A stretch of DNA of 64,000 nucleotides from Desulfomarina profundi. Its GTDB lineage: Bacteria; Desulfobacterota; Desulfobulbia; Desulfobulbales; Desulfocapsaceae. The position numbers and the translations under genes were made by a program. Under the pieces are notes generated by a model, which did not search any database, was not told the origin of the DNA, and worked only from the letters and a program-made list of their open reading frames with translations. The stretch lies in assembly GCF_019703855.1 (NCBI RefSeq), contig NZ_AP024086.1:558001-622000 (forward strand), given 5' to 3'. Shown in pieces: positions 23,172 through 39,358 of the stretch; position 1 is the stretch's first letter, and each line of letters starts with the position of its first letter.

Positions 23172-23396
23172 GTTCTTTTTTCACTTTGTCCTGTATCTCT
23201 GACCCGGGTTTTTCCGGCTTTAAATATTTTTCTCCATATAAATTTTCGTACAAGCAATGTCGTATCGTTACTGTAATGTATGAATTGAATTTTTGGAAGA
23301 CGGAGTTCAGGGTAAATGGTATACTACTTTGTGAGGGTATTTTTGCAGGAATGAAATTGAATATGAACAGGCAGTTCTTAAATGCGGGAGAAAAAG

Positions 23397-24449
23397 ATGC
23401 GGTTTTTCAGAAAAAAAACGCTGACCGGCCTTGCCAGAACCTGTGGCTGAGCGGCTAAAATTGGTCCGACGGACTTGTCGGGCGCATTAAAAGGGCTGCA
23501 GGGGCCGACTGACAAGGATCTGCTGGTGGGGTTTGAGACATCGGATGATGCTGCAGTCTATAAAATATCCTCTGAAATTGCCATGATCAACACTGTTGAT
23601 TTCATCACACCACCTGTGGATGATCCATACTGGTTCGGGCAGATTTCAGCTGCCAATTCCATTTCGGATGTCTATTCCATGGGTGGCAGGCCACTGACGG
23701 CGCTGAATGTGGTGATGTTTCCTTCCGGTCATCTCGATATGGGTATTTTAAGGGAGATTCTCATGGGAGGCGCTGACAAGGTTGTGGAGGCTGGAGCCTG
23801 CCTGGTCGGAGGACATACGGTAGATGATAACGAACCGAAATATGGTCTCTGTGTGAATGGAGTCGTGCATCCTGACAGGATAATAACCAATGCGGGGGCC
23901 ATGCCGGGGGATATCCTGATTCTCACCAAGCCCCTGGGTTCCGGTGTACTGTTCAATGCGGTGCGATCAGGAAAATTCCCCTATGGTGAGTTGGAAAAAG
24001 AGGTCTTGCCGGTTTTGGCTTCCCTGAATAAGACAGCCATGGAAACGGCATTGCGTTATGAACTTCATGCGTGCACTGATATTACTGGTTTTGGGATTCT
24101 TGGTCATGCCCTGGAAATGGCTGACGGCAGTTCTGTGGGGATTGCTGTTGAGCATAGGGCCCTGCCATTTTACGGTGGAGCTCTGGATATGTATAAAAAA
24201 GGAGAGACAACCGGAAGCAACAGGGCCAACAGGGCGCTGGTGGGGAAATTCCCTTTCACCCTGGAATGTTCTCTTGGCAAGGCGGAAGAAGAAATACTTT
24301 ATGATCCGCAGACCTCAGGGGGACTGCTCCTGTCCCTACCGGCTGAACAGGGAGAACGGCTGCTGCAGGACCTGGTTGCTGAAGACATTACCGCTGCCCG
24401 AATCGGCGAGGTGTTCTCCGGCGGAAAAACAGCTCTTGTGGTTCGATAG
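23397..24449 (+). CDS. selD: Selenide, water dikinase SelD with in-frame UGA (selenocysteine)
   Basis: SelD makes selenophosphate from selenide and ATP, the selenium donor for Sec. The gene opens at ATG 23397 (MRFFRKKTLTGLART), with GGGAG upstream, and reads CG-UGA-AAKIGPTDL with UGA at 23448-23450 (residue 18). Known SelD proteins have Cys or Sec at this exact place before AAK(L/I)GP. A hairpin suited to a bacterial SECIS follows. The ATP-binding domain carries DDAAVY, VDFITPPVDDPYWFGQISAANSISD (seen in parts) and GGHTVDD. The total is 350 residues, and the frame after UGA is open to 24449. A normal gene call would start after the UGA and miss the catalytic residue. Confidence 0.92.
23464..23483 (+). 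promoter_or_regulatory. Predicted bacterial SECIS hairpin in selD
   Basis: GTCCGAC (23464-23470) pairs fully, with one G-U, to GTCGGGC (23477-23483). The loop is GGACTT and begins 21 bases after the UGA. A bSECIS needs a stem-loop at this spacing with G early in the loop. Confidence 0.7.
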
Positions 24450-24464
24450 TTGTTTTCATGGACA

Positions 24465-24809
24465 TCAGGAGCTGGCTCGAAGTTGTTCCAGGGAATCGTC
24501 CAGGTTCTGATAGATGGTGATAAAGGAATCAAAACCCGAAATTTCAAATACCTCCTGCACATGATCCTGCATGCAGCAGGTCACAAAGCAGTAAGGTGAT
24601 GATTTATAGGCTTTGGCTGTGTTGAGAATGATACGCAGTCCGGCGCTTGAGATATAGTCAAGTTCATTAAAATTGAGCACTAGGTGACAGTCTGGAGAAT
24701 GAAGAAAATCCTGTACCTGTTTTTCAAACTGTGGAGCAGTTCGTGAGTCAAGCCTCCCTTTGAGGTCGAAAATAGTAGCGTTATCCATGCGGCTTATTTC
24801 TGTTTCCAT
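24465..24809 (-). CDS. STAS-domain anti-sigma factor antagonist
   Basis: 114 residues with the SpoIIAA/RsbV fold. LKGRLDSRTAPQFE is in the first half, and NELDYISSAGLRIILNTAK carries the phosphorylatable Ser (SSAG). Such proteins titrate RsbW-type kinases when dephosphorylated. The neighbour just upstream is the matching kinase. No sigma factor gene is adjacent, so the partner switch may act on another target, such as the associated ABC protein. Confidence 0.88.
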   Translation of the reverse strand: METEISRMDNATIFDLKGRLDSRTAPQFEKQVQDFLHSPDCHLVLNFNELDYISSAGLRIILNTAKAYKSSPYCFVTCCMQDHVQEVFEISGFDSFITIYQNLDDSLEQLRASS

Positions 24810-24829: not shown

Positions 24830-25252
24830 CTATCTGTTCTCCTCCGGCAGAAGTTTTTTCAGGGTAAGAATATTTTTTTTGCCTGTTCGTTTGTAGCTGC
24901 AGCTATTGCTGAATTTGCGGACAAGGTGTATCCCGAGTCCCCCGCATGTTCGTTCTTCGAGGGGGAGGGATATATCCGGAATGGGGGTAATGGTCGGGTC
25001 AAACGGCGGACCTGTATCCGTCAGTATTATTGTTATACTATTATCTTTTTTAATAAGTCGTATTGTAATCTCAATCTCCCTGTCACAGTTGCCGTGCTCG
25101 ATGATATTGGACACCAGTTCATCCAGAATGAGATTCATTTCGGATATTATCCGGCGGGTAAGATTCCATCTTTTTTTGAGTTTTGCAAGAACCGCATGGA
25201 TCGTTGTGAGTTCCGAGCAGTCATTTCGTATTTGAAAGAAGATGTCCATCAC
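24830..25252 (-). CDS. RsbW/SpoIIAB-like serine kinase (anti-sigma factor type)
   Basis: 140 residues of GHKL ATPase fold. The N box is NLILDELVSNIIEHG, the G1 box is LTDTGPPFDP and the G2 box is GGLGIHLVRKF. These proteins bind ATP, phosphorylate STAS partners and sequester sigma factors or regulators. It is followed 20 bases later by the STAS gene on the same strand, so the two form a partner-switching pair. Confidence 0.87.
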   Translation of the reverse strand: MMDIFFQIRNDCSELTTIHAVLAKLKKRWNLTRRIISEMNLILDELVSNIIEHGNCDREIEITIRLIKKDNSITIILTDTGPPFDPTITPIPDISLPLEERTCGGLGIHLVRKFSNSCSYKRTGKKNILTLKKLLPEENR

Positions 25253-25273: not shown

Positions 25274-25789
25274 TCAGAGTGCTGTTACTCCCAGCCTGGA
25301 AAAACAACAGGGAGCCGCCTCAGATATATTGGTTCTTTCCCAGCGGTTGATTTCTTTTAAAACCGCCTTGAGAGAGAGTGGTTGTACTTCGGGAAACTGT
25401 TCCAGTATTTTCTGGAACTGTTCACGATCAATGGTGAGAACCCTGGTTTTCTTCTCGGCCTTCAGGTTAAAGAGGGCAATGTTCTGGCCGAAAAGAGAAA
25501 GTGAGCCGATGAAGTCTCCCGCTATGAATTTCCTGATGGTTTCTGTAGTACCGTTTTCCCCATTTGTGGTCAATACCAGACAACCTTCGAGAACCAGGTA
25601 GGCCCGATCTGTGTCGTCTCCCTTTTCATAGAGCAGGTCTTCCGGCAGAAAATCACCTCTTGTGGGCAGAAGAGCTAAAATTTTCAGAGCCTGAAGAGGA
25701 AATGCGGAAAAAAACGGCAGCTCTTTTAAAAGCTCGAGGTTCTGGTGCATTTCAGGAACTGTTTCGCTGTTTACCGTAGATGAGTTCAT
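25274..25789 (-). CDS. Cyclic nucleotide-binding domain protein
   Basis: 171 residues from MNSSTVNSETVPEMHQ, chosen because AAGGA lies 7 bases upstream. It overlaps the ABC gene end by 38 bases. The single cNMP-binding fold has the segments LPEDLLYEKGDDTDRAYLVLEG and FIAGDFIGSLSLFG (the PBC loop region). There is no HTH, so it is not a Crp-type transcription factor. It probably senses a nucleotide or acts as a structural module for the transporter or partner switch. Confidence 0.8.
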   Translation of the reverse strand: MNSSTVNSETVPEMHQNLELLKELPFFSAFPLQALKILALLPTRGDFLPEDLLYEKGDDTDRAYLVLEGCLVLTTNGENGTTETIRKFIAGDFIGSLSLFGQNIALFNLKAEKKTRVLTIDREQFQKILEQFPEVQPLSLKAVLKEINRWERTNISEAAPCCFSRLGVTAL

Positions 25790-28325
25790 GGAGTAATCCT
25801 TTTTTATCAATGAGTTCCTGGTAGGTTCCCAGTTCTGCCAGTTTCCCTGCCTTCATTACAGCGATTTTATCAAAGGTTTTTATAGTATCGAGGCGATGGA
25901 TTATGGCGATCAGGGTACGTTTTCCCTTCCACCTCGTTTCAATGAGTCGCTGGATTCTGGTCTGGGATTTGTTGTCCAGGGCTGAGGTGGCTTCATCCAT
26001 TATAATAATAGGAGCCTGTTTGATGAGAACCCTGGCAATGGCGAGTTTTTGTTTCTGTCCGCCCGACAGTCTGTCTCCCATTGTTCCTACCTGGAAATTC
26101 ATACCTATGGAGGCAATTTCCTCCAGGCATTCTTCAGCAATCAGGAGATGGATGATTGCCTGGTTTATCTTTTCCTGAGCATGGGTGAGATCTGACTTCA
26201 CTTTGCCGAACAGGATGTTGTTGAGAATGGATTGTCCTGTGATATAGTCATTTTGCTTGTAAAAGATAAAGAGACCGGGGACCTCTTTATCCGACCAGGT
26301 GGAAAAAGTTTTTCTTGCCTTGAGGATACAGCCCTTCAGTTCGTCCCGAAGCCGTGTCATTGTATGGATGGCAGGGGTGAAGTTCAATGCCAGGGAGAGC
26401 AGGAAATTCTGCTGTTTGGCGTTCAGGTCTGCTGGTTTTTCTGTTTTCAGATGGCCAAGAATAATTCGACACTCTTCCAGCCTGTTGGCAGGAACAGGAC
26501 TGTTTTCAAAAAAGATATCGTGTGTTTCCACACCTCCAAGAATATCGACAGCCTGTTCCGCCAGCTCTTCTCCCAGGTTGAGCAGGGGGGTAAGCAGTTC
26601 AGAGGCAAGCAGAAATTTACGAAAAAGAGGGTTTTTGGCAAGCAAGTCGAAAGCAAATCTGGAATCAGTTGCAGTTCCGAAAATGATATTTTCCTGAATA
26701 CTTGAGTTGAAATGATAGGAGTCTCTGTCGAAAAACTCTATGAAATCGTTCAGTCTCTCACCAAAGTCTTCTCTGAAAATTGTGCGGATATGAACGATTT
26801 TCTCCATCATCTTTCTGTCATTCTGATTAATATAGCTATCGAGGCCAAAGCGCATCACGTCTACAAAAAGACCTGCCTGCTGGAGAACGAGGATCATTCT
26901 GTCCAAGTCGGGTTCGTGATCGGAGGCGGGAGACGGATTTGCCAGGGAGAGAGTGGCCAGACGCGCATAGAGCAGGTTTTCCTTGATGGAACCTGTAAAA
27001 ATAAAGGGATTCTGAGAAATATAGCCGATTTTATCTATAATTACAGATTTTGAAAGGGAGCGCAGTTCGCAGTCGCCGATGAGGATGTTGCCCGATGAGT
27101 AATTGTACATTTTTCCTATGCATTGGGCGAGGACCGACTTGCCGCTTCCTGAAAAACCTACAATTGCCAGATGTTCACCACCTTTGAGGGAAAAACTGAC
27201 CCCCTTAAGCAGTTTAAGTCCTTCAGGTGTCTCAAAAACGAGATCCTGGATTTTTACACTGTTGTTTTTCGGTGTTTCTTCGGGGGAATCCGTTTTGTGT
27301 TCAATCAAAAATTCTGGAGGCGTATCGAAATATTCCATTGTCCGCTTATAGCGGACGGATGCATCCTGGTATGTCTGGTAAAATTCTATCAGTTCTTTCC
27401 AGGGATCATACAGCTTCTCTTGGGCAGAGAGGAAGGCTACCATGGCTCCCAGCTCAAGCTCTCCATGCATAACCAGGTATCCCCCGTAAATAAAGACGAT
27501 AAAAGGACCCAGGCTGACAAAATAGTTGTTTGTTGTTTTTATGCCGAAACGAAAAAGAGACCAGCGGATTCTTACTTTCTTCAGTGTTTCAACAAGGACA
27601 TCAAATTTCCTGTTTTCCTGTTCATAGGCTCCGTGAACCTGTACTTCACTGATTCCCGAGATGGACTCGGCGATCTGGTTGGCGGTGGCTCTTGATATGT
27701 CGACCCGCTCCTTATTGGCCTTGTTTGCCCGTTTCTGTAAAAGGGGAACAACAAAGACAGCGATAGGATAAATAAGCATGGTGGCACAGGCCAGTTTGAT
27801 GTGCAGGGAAAGAAGATAGCTCGCAAAGGCGATCAGGGTAAGGATATTGGTCACGGGTACGGCGAAAGCCTGGCCGGCAAAAGTTCCTGCAGAACTCAGT
27901 TCTGTCATGAGTGAAGAGACAACCATGCCGGGCTGGGTCTTGCGAAAAAAGGAGAGGGGCATGGTGAGAATATGATGATACAGTGCCTTGCGCATGGAAA
28001 GCATGGCCCGTTCACCGATAAGAGCCTGAAGGTAATTGATCGCAAGTTTAAGAAGACTGGTGACGGTTACTGCGATAAGATATATGGAACAAAAAAGAAT
28101 AAGGCTTGAAACATCCCGGAGAGCAATAGCCTCGTTGACGATCCTTTTCTGCATTTCAAGAGGCAGAACGCGGGCAAAGACAATGAGGACGATGACGAAG
28201 AAAAGAATCAGCTGCAGCTTGAAATTTCCCTTGAAGGCCCAGGAAAAGATTGATCTTTTCGTCACCTGAATAGAGTTTGAAGATCGATCGTTTATTTTTT
28301 TCTTGTGAGAAATTCTCTGTAACAA
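25752..28325 (-). CDS. ABC exporter (fused permease/ATPase) with large insertion in the nucleotide-binding domain
   Basis: 857 residues. An ABC transmembrane domain (about 35-330) is fused to one ATPase. Walker A GFSGSGKS is at 390-397 and the Q-loop Gln at about 438. The signature LSGGQ comes only at 753-757, with Walker B IIIMDEAT at 773-780 and the His switch in AIIHRL. In ordinary exporters about 70 residues separate Q-loop and signature; here about 315 do. The extra region holds repeated segments SIKENLLYARL, SIQENIIFGTA and SILNNILFGKV, as if the Q-loop-proximal part had been duplicated. The substrate is unknown. It heads a minus-strand cluster with cNMP, kinase and STAS genes. Confidence 0.85.
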   Translation of the reverse strand: MLQRISHKKKINDRSSNSIQVTKRSIFSWAFKGNFKLQLILFFVIVLIVFARVLPLEMQKRIVNEAIALRDVSSLILFCSIYLIAVTVTSLLKLAINYLQALIGERAMLSMRKALYHHILTMPLSFFRKTQPGMVVSSLMTELSSAGTFAGQAFAVPVTNILTLIAFASYLLSLHIKLACATMLIYPIAVFVVPLLQKRANKANKERVDISRATANQIAESISGISEVQVHGAYEQENRKFDVLVETLKKVRIRWSLFRFGIKTTNNYFVSLGPFIVFIYGGYLVMHGELELGAMVAFLSAQEKLYDPWKELIEFYQTYQDASVRYKRTMEYFDTPPEFLIEHKTDSPEETPKNNSVKIQDLVFETPEGLKLLKGVSFSLKGGEHLAIVGFSGSGKSVLAQCIGKMYNYSSGNILIGDCELRSLSKSVIIDKIGYISQNPFIFTGSIKENLLYARLATLSLANPSPASDHEPDLDRMILVLQQAGLFVDVMRFGLDSYINQNDRKMMEKIVHIRTIFREDFGERLNDFIEFFDRDSYHFNSSIQENIIFGTATDSRFAFDLLAKNPLFRKFLLASELLTPLLNLGEELAEQAVDILGGVETHDIFFENSPVPANRLEECRIILGHLKTEKPADLNAKQQNFLLSLALNFTPAIHTMTRLRDELKGCILKARKTFSTWSDKEVPGLFIFYKQNDYITGQSILNNILFGKVKSDLTHAQEKINQAIIHLLIAEECLEEIASIGMNFQVGTMGDRLSGGQKQKLAIARVLIKQAPIIIMDEATSALDNKSQTRIQRLIETRWKGKRTLIAIIHRLDTIKTFDKIAVMKAGKLAELGTYQELIDKKGLLHELIYGKQRNSS

Positions 28326-28615: not shown

Positions 28616-29448
28616 TCACGATTTATTTGGGTCAAAATATTTAAATTTCTGACCCTGAAGTATATTGTCAACAGATCGCATGTTCCCTTTCATATAAAAA
28701 ACGTTTGGTTTTGTATCATCTGCAGGGCGGATAACCCAGACTTTTTCCTCAAGTTGATGAACGAGTTTGTAGACTATGTTGTCCGGATCTGTGAGGTTGC
28801 CAAAAGTTCGTGCACCTGTAGGGCATGCCGCTGAGCATCCTGTTTGGGTTTTTCCTTTGGACAGCCGTTCCTCCCAACAGAAATCACACTTGTCAATGGC
28901 ACGACGCTCGGCGCTGAAATATCTTGCATCGTATGGGCAGGCGAGCATGCATGTTTTGCAGCCTATACACTTCTTACTTTCCATACGTACGATACCGGTG
29001 ACCGGATCTTTATATGTAGCTCTGGTCGGGCATGCTCTTACACAAGGTGCTGCATTACAATGGTTGCAGAGTACCGGAATAAATTCCACCTGTTTGTCCA
29101 GGGTTCCCGTATATTTTTTTGTGAGTATCCTGGTTCTGTAACCGTAGTCAGGTACATGGTTGATCTTGTTGCAGGCATCAACACATTTCTCACAGTCAAT
29201 ACAGAGAGACTGGCGGATGACCATGCTGTAATGCGGGTTGTAAGGATATTTTTCAACAAACTCCGTGCCCCCTCTGAGCCTGAGGCATGGGCAGTTGCAA
29301 CAAGGGAGGTGAGAGAGAGTATTTTCCCGCCGGCATAGACACCGGCAACAGTAAAACCGAGTTTTAGGAAGTTTCTTCTTTCCTTGGCTGTAACTGTTTC
29401 TGTACCCTCATTTTTAAGTTTATGTAAATCTATCTTTGGAAAATTCAT
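28616..29448 (-). CDS. Tat-exported 4x[4Fe-4S] ferredoxin subunit (NrfC/DsrO/HybA-like), frameshifted
   Basis: The N-terminus has a twin-arginine-type signal (KERRNFLKLGFTVAGVYAGG). The body has four cysteine clusters: CIDCEKCVDAC, CNHCNAAPCVRACP, CIGCKTCMLACP and CDFC...GCSAACP, for four [4Fe-4S] centres. The frame is split at the C run 29268-29272 (G run on the coding strand). One added base gives SEGGTEFVEKYPYNPHYSM and joins the halves. It should carry electrons between the NrfD subunit and the 9-haem cytochrome on the periplasmic side. It is the third gene of the minus-strand operon. Confidence 0.85.
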
Positions 29449-37879: not shown

Positions 37880-39358
37880 TCAAGACTCAATTCCAGTTTT
37901 TTTTATTTTGATGACAACCAGGGTGATGTCATCTTCCTGGGGAAGGGTGTCCCGAAAATGTGAGACTTCTTCAATTACCTTATCCCGGATTGTTTCTGCA
38001 GATCTGTGATCGTTGTTCATTATGATTTCTTCCAAACGATCCTGACCAAACATTTCATCTGACGGGTTTCGTGATTCTTTGATTCCATCGGTTCCTATAA
38101 GGATAATGTCGTTTTCCTGCAAACCACCTTGAGAGCTGTTTTTGTATTGAATTTGATCGTCAATTCCGAGAACAAGTCCCCGGTCGTTCAGATAATAAAA
38201 TTTTTTATCCGCAGATTTGTAATAAAGGGCCGGTTCGTGTCCTGCCCGTACCCAGGTAATCGAAGCATTTTTTCTGTCTATTTCAAGAAAGAACATGGAA
38301 GTAAATCGACCGGACCTGGCACAGTCTCTGGAAATATATGTATTTATAGCTGTGAGCAGGTCAGCTGGAGAGCTGTAAGTTTTTACTGCCGTATGAAGAA
38401 AAGCACGAACAGATATCATTAAGAGTGCTGCCCCTACTCCATGCCCACAGGCATCTGCCACTACAATACCAAACTTGTTTTCAGAGAGTTTAAAATAGTC
38501 GAAATAGTCTCCTCCGGTAGCATCACAATAGATACTAATGCCTGACAGCTGAAGGCCCTGAAAGTCCGGACTCTTATCTGGGAGCAGGTTTTGTTGCACC
38601 TCTTCGGCAAGTTTCATTTCACTGACGAGTTCAAAACGATGGCGCAGTCCATCAATCATGGTATTGGTATGTCCAGCGATAATACCGAATTCATCGTAGG
38701 TTGCCACGGGAACCTTCTGCCTGAGGTTTCCACCACTGACCTGCTCCAGCACTCTGGTTTGATTATTAAACAAGAGCTTCAGGTTTCTTGAGTAGGAAAC
38801 GATAAGGTTAAGCATCAACACCATCAGTACAGCCATCGTGAAAAAAATTTCATAGGCGACAGAGAGTTGCGCTTGATGAATGGAGGCTTCATCCTGAGAA
38901 ACTTTTGTCAGCCATACCACGTCTCGGGCAAGAAGTAGAATTATAACCAGTGAGATAAAAAAGGTTGATGATACTGCTACAAAAGTAAACTTCTTGGTCA
39001 TTGAAAAAAAATATTGCGGTATGGGGGAAGAAATATCTTTGTTCATCGCTTCTCTGATTACCTTTCTTTCCTGGAAAAGTGATGCGTCCAGTCCTATAAA
39101 AAAACCGACAATTATGCAGCCGATAATCAAGGATGTAAAGCTGTAGATTGGAAAACCGTAGACGAATCTGTTGTAGGAAAAAATAAGAATTCCAGCGAGG
39201 ATACATGTGCAGAATTCGATGAAAAAGGCTCTTCTTGCGCGAAGCATCGAAGTTTTATCAGACACAAATCGTTTGTACAATAGTGGTCTGATGGCCAGAA
39301 GGCCAAGAAACGTGATGGTTATGGTGGTCCCCAATGTCACGGGGGACAGGGTTGCCAT
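37880..39358 (-). CDS. Membrane SpoIIE/RsbU-type serine phosphatase with HAMP domain
   Basis: 492 residues. The N-terminal half has about five to six hydrophobic helices. A HAMP linker follows (VLEQVSGGNLRQKVPVATYDEFGIIA, seen in parts), then a PP2C-type phosphatase: ATGGDYFDYFKL and VVADACGHGVGAALLM carry the metal-binding Asp residues, with IGTDGIKESRNP and EDDITLVVI. These enzymes dephosphorylate STAS antagonists. The RsbW/STAS pair at 24.5-25.3 kb is a plausible but unproven target. Confidence 0.88.
   Translation of the reverse strand: MATLSPVTLGTTITITFLGLLAIRPLLYKRFVSDKTSMLRARRAFFIEFCTCILAGILIFSYNRFVYGFPIYSFTSLIIGCIIVGFFIGLDASLFQERKVIREAMNKDISSPIPQYFFSMTKKFTFVAVSSTFFISLVIILLLARDVVWLTKVSQDEASIHQAQLSVAYEIFFTMAVLMVLMLNLIVSYSRNLKLLFNNQTRVLEQVSGGNLRQKVPVATYDEFGIIAGHTNTMIDGLRHRFELVSEMKLAEEVQQNLLPDKSPDFQGLQLSGISIYCDATGGDYFDYFKLSENKFGIVVADACGHGVGAALLMISVRAFLHTAVKTYSSPADLLTAINTYISRDCARSGRFTSMFFLEIDRKNASITWVRAGHEPALYYKSADKKFYYLNDRGLVLGIDDQIQYKNSSQGGLQENDIILIGTDGIKESRNPSDEMFGQDRLEEIIMNNDHRSAETIRDKVIEEVSHFRDTLPQEDDITLVVIKIKKTGIES

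Follow-up and report, generated by a model that had tools for sequence, protein, structure and literature searches.

What has been built into the NBD of an ABC exporter from Desulfomarina profundi, and what could so large an addition between Q-loop and signature do there? The gene lies at 25752..28325 of the 64,000-nucleotide stretch of DNA analysed here (the window), on the reverse strand, as do its own features and the three neighbors located below. Its open frame, Pfam matches, alignment and predicted structure describe a half-size exporter of 857 amino acids with an NBD split by tandem helical subdomains. The transmembrane domain at residues 45-301 (27423..28193; Pfam ABC_membrane PF00664, E 6.2e-30) is followed by ABC_tran (PF00005, 1.2e-24), which matches in two stretches. 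Motif reading places Walker A, SGSGKS, at residues 392-397 (27135..27152) and the signature motif LSGGQ at residues 753-757 (26055..26069); the Q-loop, SQNPF, starts at residue 437 with Q438 as its Gln. Aligned residues locate Walker B at 773-778, including D777 and E778 (25992..26009), and the H-loop at His810 (25896..25898). The motifs and aligned residues confirm the claim of the sequence-only reading that all five catalytic features (Walker A, Q-loop, LSGGQ, Walker B Glu and H-loop His) are present.

The spacing of these motifs is exceptional. From Q438 to the signature Ser754 we counted 316 residues, in agreement with an initial figure of about 315, compared to 54-62 (median, 57) in 41 ordinary exporters; similarly, the start of Walker A (GxSGSGKS) is 363 residues from LSGGQ, compared to 103-109 in the 41 ordinary exporters. 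A large excess therefore exists, but its size is nearer 260 residues than the 240 first proposed. The top match of the protein is MsbA_lipidA (NCBIfam equivalog TIGR02203), at 302.5 bits and under the cut-off of 602. No peptidase family, C39 included, was found in the 857-residue protein at E <= 0.1 in Pfam. We infer that the protein is one half of a homodimeric-type ABC exporter, which would pair with itself to move a substrate. Its transmembrane fold, catalytic motifs and NBD core are like those of MsbA/Sav1866/ABCB-type half transporters, from which its family differs by the extra residues, a replaced X-loop Glu and, in most members, a CNBD partner.

The extra residues resolve into three repeats of the helical subdomain. 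R1 (residues 430-527; 26745..27038) holds Q438, the segment SIKENLLY with N450 and a pseudo-signature helix with R514, and matches the helical subdomain of ordinary exporters at E 6e-15. R2 (residues 526-683; 26277..26750) has SSIQENIIFG with N546 and a pseudo-signature helix at 661-681 with R671; it carries neither the Q nor LSGGQ, matches ordinary exporters at 3.7e-6 and gives a weak match to CFTR NBD1 494-565. R3 (residues 684-773; 26007..26276) contains QSILNNILFG with N703, the X-loop VGTMGD, LSGGQ and a signature helix with R765, and matches an ordinary exporter at 3.2e-28. In the alignment of relatives, one Asn and one Arg are invariant, or nearly so, in every repeat.

Pairwise hhalign comparisons of the repeats with generous borders gave E-values of 1.2e-6, 3.5e-7 and, for R2 against R3, 8.2e-10; tighter borders brought the last to 2.4e-15. 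These values carry no correction for database size. In the shuffle control, the best of 60 column-shuffled versions per direction, over six directions, ranged from 2.8e-3 to 1.4e-2. A match of segment 345-440 to R1 (1.7e-7) was excluded as a control since the segment shares 11 residues with R1. When the ATPase-dead relatives described below were taken alone, R1 matched R2 (4.3e-4) and R3 (2.9e-4) only weakly. These profiles support the presence of three tandem helical subdomains in the NBD, with weaker support from the predicted fold; both the recognition of three SIxxN(I/L)-type segments as repeats and the suggestion of repeated duplication of the subdomain are supported. We also considered an unrelated inserted domain and rejected this reading, given that sequence and structure searches returned no outside family or fold: when the insertion profile was run against PDB sequences, the best E was 0.59, and NCBIfam had no match to the insertion of the window protein. 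Over 51 members, the commonest NCBIfam match was the ABC exporter CydC (6 members; best E, 0.015). We attribute a Pfam SMC_N match at 560-822 (34.3 bits; cut-off, 40) to the usual signature/Walker B region rather than to SMC kinship. Rad50, SMC and UvrA, which are soluble DNA proteins, also carry a large insertion that separates the Q-loop from the signature of their ABC ATPase lobes and is formed by coiled coils or other domains; the insertion here consists instead of helical-subdomain repeats whose longest helix in the predicted model, at 661-681, has 21 residues.

Structure prediction yielded a folded insertion (pLDDT, 88.0; pTM, 0.83; a further prediction, pLDDT 88.8). The core NBD of the model superposes on the TAP1 NBD with a Z of 31.7 (248 of 251 residues; 1.8 A), and the alignment of the model with Sav1866 spans 454 residues (Z, 32.0; 4.2 A). 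In a fold comparison of the insertion (18 rows with Z >= 2), the two top rows were ABC NBDs, but these matches were weak (Z, 5.2 and 4.1), and Foldseek with the insertion returned no match at E <= 0.001.

An insertion of this kind could have been a chance similarity, a pseudogene or an assembly artefact, and we found nothing in favor of that account. The insertion is present in 93 distinct relatives, 61 in the window's branch and 32 in Pseudomonadota, and the alignment shows it in 50 rows besides the window protein, to which they have 36-73% identity; its dN/dS is at most 0.27 among the pairs listed from the 40 closest of 58, which were those tried. It occurs in 28 of 395 genomes of its own phylum and in 26 of 349 of a second phylum. 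In further phyla it was found in 1/149 genomes (phylum of L140), 0/146 (L073), 0/148 (L136), 0/149 (L107) and 0/148 (L109), counts in which weak members could be missed because the profile was built from the window's family side only. With this spread and low dN/dS, uniqueness to one sequence is refuted and the chance of an artefact is negligible. A scan of the genome collection with a generic Walker B peptide recovered mostly ordinary exporters, with only L071, a Desulfopila homologue, and L072 of the family among 80 loci; part of the remaining loci served as ordinary-exporter controls. In a literature search, which covered little subscription content, no description of the insertion or of the exporter-CNBD gene pair was found.

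In most members, the exporter is accompanied by a CNBD. In the window, the frame of the CNBD protein (25274..25810; PF00027, 5.7e-16) overlaps the ABC gene at its 3' end. A CNBD gene is directly downstream (73) or fused (7) in 80 of 93 relatives, compared to none of 40 ordinary exporters; all seven fusions are C-terminal and fall within the 32 Pseudomonadota members. Of the 13 relatives without a CNBD by the criterion used, L018 is truncated by the edge of its contig, at L163 and L167 the overlap between CNBD and exporter frames is too long for the criterion, and in 10, including the second copy in the window genome (L051), no CNBD was detected. CNBDs that bind cNMP typically have a Glu and an Arg in the phosphate-binding cassette; in the window CNBD both are missing, with S and A in their places, and it may therefore bind another ligand or none.

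Next to it are an RsbW-like HATPase_c_2 protein (24830..25252; Pfam E 1.3e-22) and an RsbV-like STAS-domain protein (24465..24809; Pfam E 9.9e-17), whose genes adjoin each other. The expectation that the insertion always accompanies cNMP and STAS genes was borne out largely for the cNMP-type partner but not for STAS, which was seen at 18 of 61 loci of the window's branch and 0 of 32 of the other, many loci having short flanks. RsbW-like genes are likewise confined to part of the window's branch. A SpoIIE gene lies away from the pair in the window, at 37880-39358; it adjoins in L066 and L068.

The two branches differ in which site has been lost. The five catalytic residues are complete in 60 of 61 members of the window's branch, the 61st, L018, ending at the contig edge. 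None of the 32 Pseudomonadota relatives keeps all five; their ATPase motifs are degenerate, and 23 retain none of the Walker A, Q, signature, Walker B and His residues tested. In the tree, a branch with support of 100 separates these ATPase-dead rows from the others; their close pairs have dN/dS of 0.03-0.23 among the pairs listed, and the Asn and Arg residues of the repeats are retained in 31-32 of 32. In Rhizobium etli, whose member has a pseudo-NBD, glycosyltransferase genes sit immediately upstream of IE4803_PA00035/34, the second of which encodes the CNBD. Conversely, the cNMP Glu/Arg pair is found in 22 of 25 CNBDs of the ATPase-dead branch but in 1 of 54 of the intact branch, the window included. 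The X-loop Glu is present in 35 of 41 ordinary exporters but in 0 of 60 ATPase-intact members, the one hint toward the initial proposal that the insertion would lie against the membrane domain and alter coupling.

In an ABC engine, force passes between the ATP sites and the membrane through the helical subdomain. Starting from the repeats, the co-occurrence and fusion of the CNBD, and the pattern of lost residues, we give a slightly better than even chance to a model in which the helical array serves as a regulatory platform that lets the CNBD protein control the membrane domain. With the Q-loop coming from R1 and the signature from R3, a complete ATPase site can form, as judged from motifs and the model fold, while R2, together with the halves of R1 and R3 left over, would make up an extra helical lobe. 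This lobe would dock the CNBD protein encoded with or fused to the exporter, and a signal read by the CNBD would gate the membrane domain. An RsbW/STAS partner switch, with SpoIIE at some loci, may also act on the lobe in some members of the window's branch. On this model, two lineages diverged in opposite directions: Thermodesulfobacteriota retained the ATPase while the canonical cNMP pocket was mostly given up, and Pseudomonadota retained the pocket but not the ATPase. If true, ligand-gated control would join the ABC exporter repertoire, and a natural three-copy family, with one lineage lacking ATPase residues, would make the helical subdomain testable as a signal-driven switch.

Precedents exist for both partners. 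In HetC of Nostoc PCC 7120, a CNBD-C39-ABC exporter, the CNBD is needed for function and binds ppGpp, whereas cAMP gave no significant stabilization (PMC10986499). HetC resembles the present family in joining an ABC exporter to a CNBD, but it has C39 and an N-terminal CNBD, while here the CNBD is separate and downstream or C-terminal, no C39 domain was found and the helical subdomain is triplicated. Fused members L175 and L177 also gave no C39 peptidase at E <= 0.001. The putative STAS action on the lobe is modeled on MlaB, a STAS protein that contacts the helical subdomain of MlaF (PMC7367683). In part of the window's branch STAS is similarly encoded with the ABC gene, but MlaF is an ATPase without a fused TMD in a lipid-trafficking complex. 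The MlaF system is not known to have a CNBD or a comparable insertion.

The same genes could be read differently. If the substrate is demanding, extra helical copies might widen the surface over which NBD and membrane domain are coupled, and the CNBD might be an assembly or stability factor free of ligand control. Replacement of the X-loop Glu in 60/60 intact members suggests that coupling contacts may differ, the window's CNBD pocket is degenerate, and MlaF is reported to depend on MlaB for its stability (PMC7367683). However, the helical array persists where the ATPase is degenerate, and retention of the cNMP residues by most CNBDs beside dead ATPases is unexpected for a coupling aid with a chaperone; we regard this explanation as rather unlikely.

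We put still less weight on a heterodimer, in which ATPase-dead members would pair with unlinked intact half-exporters and ATP would still drive transport. TmrAB, TM287/288 and TAP are well-known heterodimeric exporters with a degenerate site, in which catalytic residues are lost in one subunit, as in the Pseudomonadota branch here, and the genes upstream of L177 do include those of an ordinary exporter and of HlyD. Yet no ordinary half-exporter is constantly adjacent: ABC-type ATPase frames occur at 6 of 23 loci in varying positions, the one at L153 being annotated beside importer genes. The joint loss of all five residues in 23/32 also sets these members apart from the known heterodimers.

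Returning to regulation through the array, the decayed ATPase of the Pseudomonadota members, with the triple helical part and sensor pocket kept, hints from sequence that a signal molecule may drive this family of pumps. Tentatively, an ATP pump may there have become a cyclic-nucleotide-operated membrane machine, the array transmitting a signal read by the CNBD and made by a neighboring cyclase at some loci, from an ancestor with both sites. L044 and L195, cited as members still holding both, keep the five catalytic residues ahead of a CNBD with Glu and Arg, so the trade-off between ATPase and cNMP pocket is not strict. L195, not among the 93, also has the X-loop Glu, and its CNBD starts three bases downstream. 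L044 branches first within the intact branch in one tree. In a tree that includes L195, the rooting is unsure, as the program flagged long branches; there L195 falls outside both branches, on a long branch beside ordinary exporters, and L044 is outside a fork (support, 83) holding the other intact rows, L195 and ordinary exporters; the intact rows then need two changes, not one. Class III cyclase genes were seen at just 3 of 23 wide loci (L183, L190 and L192), in each case two or three genes downstream.

The ABC exporter half at 25752-28325 (minus strand, 857 aa) pairs a single ABC_membrane domain with an ABC_tran domain that Pfam matches in two stretches; by fold and motifs, it is an ABCB/MsbA-type exporter half. 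The sequence-only reading held that its catalytic motifs are all present, and each could be located: the Walker A motif SGSGKS starts at residue 392, the Q-loop Gln is residue 438, LSGGQ starts at 753, the Walker B residues are D777 and E778, and the switch His is H810. It was also right that the Q-loop and signature lie about 315 residues apart. We measured 316 residues from the Gln to the signature Ser, close to the median of 317 for the protein's ATPase-intact branch (range, 307 to 340; n = 60 members). The proposed excess of 240 residues does exist, but it is nearer 260, given a median spacing of 57 residues (range, 54 to 62) in 41 ordinary exporters.

The extra residues had been attributed to duplication of the helical subdomain, and this explanation is supported. 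Sub-alignments of three tandem segments, R1 (residues 430-527), R2 (526-683), and R3 (684-773), were aligned to one another with hhalign. When the borders were set generously, the E-values, which are pairwise and not database-corrected, were 1.2e-6 for R1-R2, 3.5e-7 for R1-R3, and 8.2e-10 for R2-R3, while the best of 60 column-shuffled controls in each of six directions ranged from 2.8e-3 to 1.4e-2. Unrelated segments of the same protein scored 0.036 or worse, except for one that overlaps R1. Tighter borders brought R2-R3 to 2.4e-15. Each repeat also matched the helical subdomain of the 41 ordinary exporters (6e-15, 3.7e-6, and 3.2e-28 for R1, R2, and R3, respectively). In the ATPase-dead sister branch alone, R2-R3 reached 9.5e-19, but R1-R2 and R1-R3 reached only 4.3e-4 and 2.9e-4. 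Every repeat has one conserved Asn in its SIxxN segment (N450, N546, and N703) and one conserved Arg in its closing helix (R514, R671, and R765); all are invariant in a 51-row alignment of full-length homologues (36 to 73% identity to the window protein) except R765, which is kept in 59/61 members on the window's side and 32/32 on the other. The nucleotide-binding domain (NBD) of the window protein contains three helical subdomains.

An AlphaFold2 model of the whole protein was confident (mean pLDDT, 88.0; pTM, 0.83), with most of the insertion above 90. Its NBD superimposed on that of TAP1 at 1.8 Å, with 248 of 251 residues aligned, indicating that the ordinary core is complete and that the insertion is additional. 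Modelled alone, the insertion had a pLDDT of 88.8. Foldseek returned no match to the insertion model at an E-value of ≤0.001; among 306 chains re-aligned by VIA, 18 had a Z of 2 or more, and the two best were ABC NBDs, CFTR NBD1 494-565 (Z 5.2, 72 residues, 2.7 Å) and CydD 431-502 (Z 4.1, 70 residues, 2.9 Å), scores too low to suffice alone. Both ranges presumably run from the Q-loop to the signature helix. Judged from the range ends, R671 would align with CFTR R560 if the final aligned residues match gap-free.

The insertion is conserved, as the family search yielded 93 distinct frames (after dropping copies identical in the last 200 residues), 61 on the window's side and 32 on the other. A further member, L195, is additional to these totals. 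A search with the window insertion alone found it in 28/395 genomes of its own phylum, presumably Thermodesulfobacteriota judging by the relatives L071 and L072; an insertion profile found it in 26/349 genomes of the phylum of a Yersinia locus (L101) and in 1/149, 0/146, 0/148, 0/149, and 0/148 genomes of five further phyla. Among 12 matches listed, relatives with 26.7 to 30.2% identity over 91 to 92% of the protein are plasmid-borne in Rhizobium, Phyllobacterium, and a Hyphomicrobiales bacterium.

The next gene (25274-25810, minus strand) encodes a cyclic-nucleotide-binding domain (CNBD) protein, its frame overlapping the ABC gene, and is followed on the same strand by a gene for an RsbW-like protein of kinase fold and then by one for a STAS protein (Pfam). 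Whether the insertion always lies beside such genes had been raised as a check; proximity held for the CNBD in most members, but not for the STAS module. The CNBD profile placed an adjoining same-strand CNBD downstream in 73/93 members and a fused one in 7 (80/93 in all), and in 0/40 ordinary exporters scanned likewise. All 7 fusions are C-terminal (L175 and L177 were checked with Pfam). Thirteen members fell outside this count: L018 is truncated at a contig end; in L163 and L167, the CNBD frame overlaps the exporter frame beyond our criterion; and in the other 10, the profile detected no CNBD. HATPase and/or STAS genes were found downstream in 24/61 members of the window's branch and 0/32 of the other, although the flanks of many loci did not extend far enough to reveal such genes. 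Upstream of the exporter, L066 and L068 carry a gene for a SpoIIE phosphatase; in the window, one is at 37880-39358 (minus strand), ~10 kb from the exporter operon, and the genome has four SpoIIE matches.

Several genomes of the window's family carry a second subfamily (37 to 41% identity to the window protein) in a distinct cluster ordered FtsX/MacB-like, DUF6785/6784, a ~680-aa protein of unknown function, exporter, CNBD, two further unknown proteins, and PqqD (L056 by Pfam; L052, L054, L058, and L061 by profile). The cluster has the look of an export or modified-peptide system that is as yet undescribed. The second copy in the window genome itself (L051, G000:C1:2415070-2417607; 38% identical) and its kin L062 lack a CNBD and neighbor a DcaP-type outer-membrane porin.

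We scored five catalytic residues, the Walker A Lys, Q, signature Gly755, Walker B Glu, and His. All five are present in 60/61 members on the window's side, the 61st being cut off. On the other side, none of the 32 members keeps all five: 23 keep none, 3 keep one, 4 keep two, and 2 keep three. The same 32 proteins all retain N546, N703, R514, R671, and R765, and 31 retain N450. Such losses could mark pseudogenes, but this is unlikely, since whole-gene dN/dS in this branch is low (0.03 to 0.23 for the close pairs among those listed). In a 70-row tree, which excluded 24 family rows and any row shorter than 780 aa and had L195 and three ordinary exporters added, a branch with a support of 100 set the 24 degenerate members apart; because of L044, two changes are needed to account for the 42 intact rows, and the program warned of long branches. 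In an earlier 90-row tree, 58 intact rows formed one group (support, 100), with L044 branching first.

Glu and Arg mark the phosphate-binding cassette of a CNBD. Both are present in 22/25 CNBDs of the ATPase-dead branch, three more having Asp and Arg, and in only 1/54 (L044) of the ATPase-intact branch; the window's CNBD has Ser and Ala. L195, whose genome belongs to the same phylum as locus L140, combines an intact ATPase and X-loop Glu with a Glu- and Arg-containing CNBD three bases downstream. On these sequences, the simplest reading would be an ancestor with both sites followed by opposite losses, although the rooting is weak.

Neighbors of the dead branch (23 loci clustered, selected loci by Pfam) fit a cyclic-nucleotide signal but do not prove it. 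Glycosyltransferase genes lie upstream of the exporter in L152, L153, L187, and L193 (Pfam or annotation). Downstream, L182, L183, and L187 have MBL-fold genes at the first or second position, and L183, L190, and L192 have class III cyclase genes at the second or third; the MBL-fold gene directly upstream in L175 matches the Apyc1 family. A protein family of ~430 to 530 aa, whose four members in L183 to L186 have no Pfam match at an E-value of ≤1e-4, is encoded immediately upstream of the ATPase-dead exporter, except in L184, where its gene is the second one upstream.

The three helical subdomains, the CNBD association, and the pattern of residue loss are established by the analysis. We infer that the added lobe serves the CNBD protein as a surface for docking and control, and that it does so for the STAS partner switch in part of the window's branch. 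The STAS protein MlaB touches the helical subdomain of MlaF (PMC7367683). HetC requires its CNBD to function, and that domain binds ppGpp instead of cAMP (PMC10986499); by analogy, the window's CNBD, though degenerate, may still have a ligand. The X-loop Glu, present in 35/41 ordinary exporters, is absent from 60/60 intact members read, which suggests altered coupling in these proteins. Our literature search found no description of the window protein's NBD architecture or its CNBD pairing. If a cyclic nucleotide does run the dead branch, this would be more than a variant of a known exporter.

Two other genes in the window merit mention. Ahead of the selD (selenophosphate synthetase) frame at 23276-24449 (plus strand), the in-frame sequence reads ARTCG, a stop codon, and AAKIGPTDL; the gene product looks like a selenocysteine-containing SelD truncated by a standard ORF caller. 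At 28616-29448 (minus strand), adjoining larger genes of respiratory type, lies a gene whose product has 4Fe-4S ferredoxin motifs and a Tat-type signal; its reading frame is broken in two, an interruption that may be real or due to assembly.
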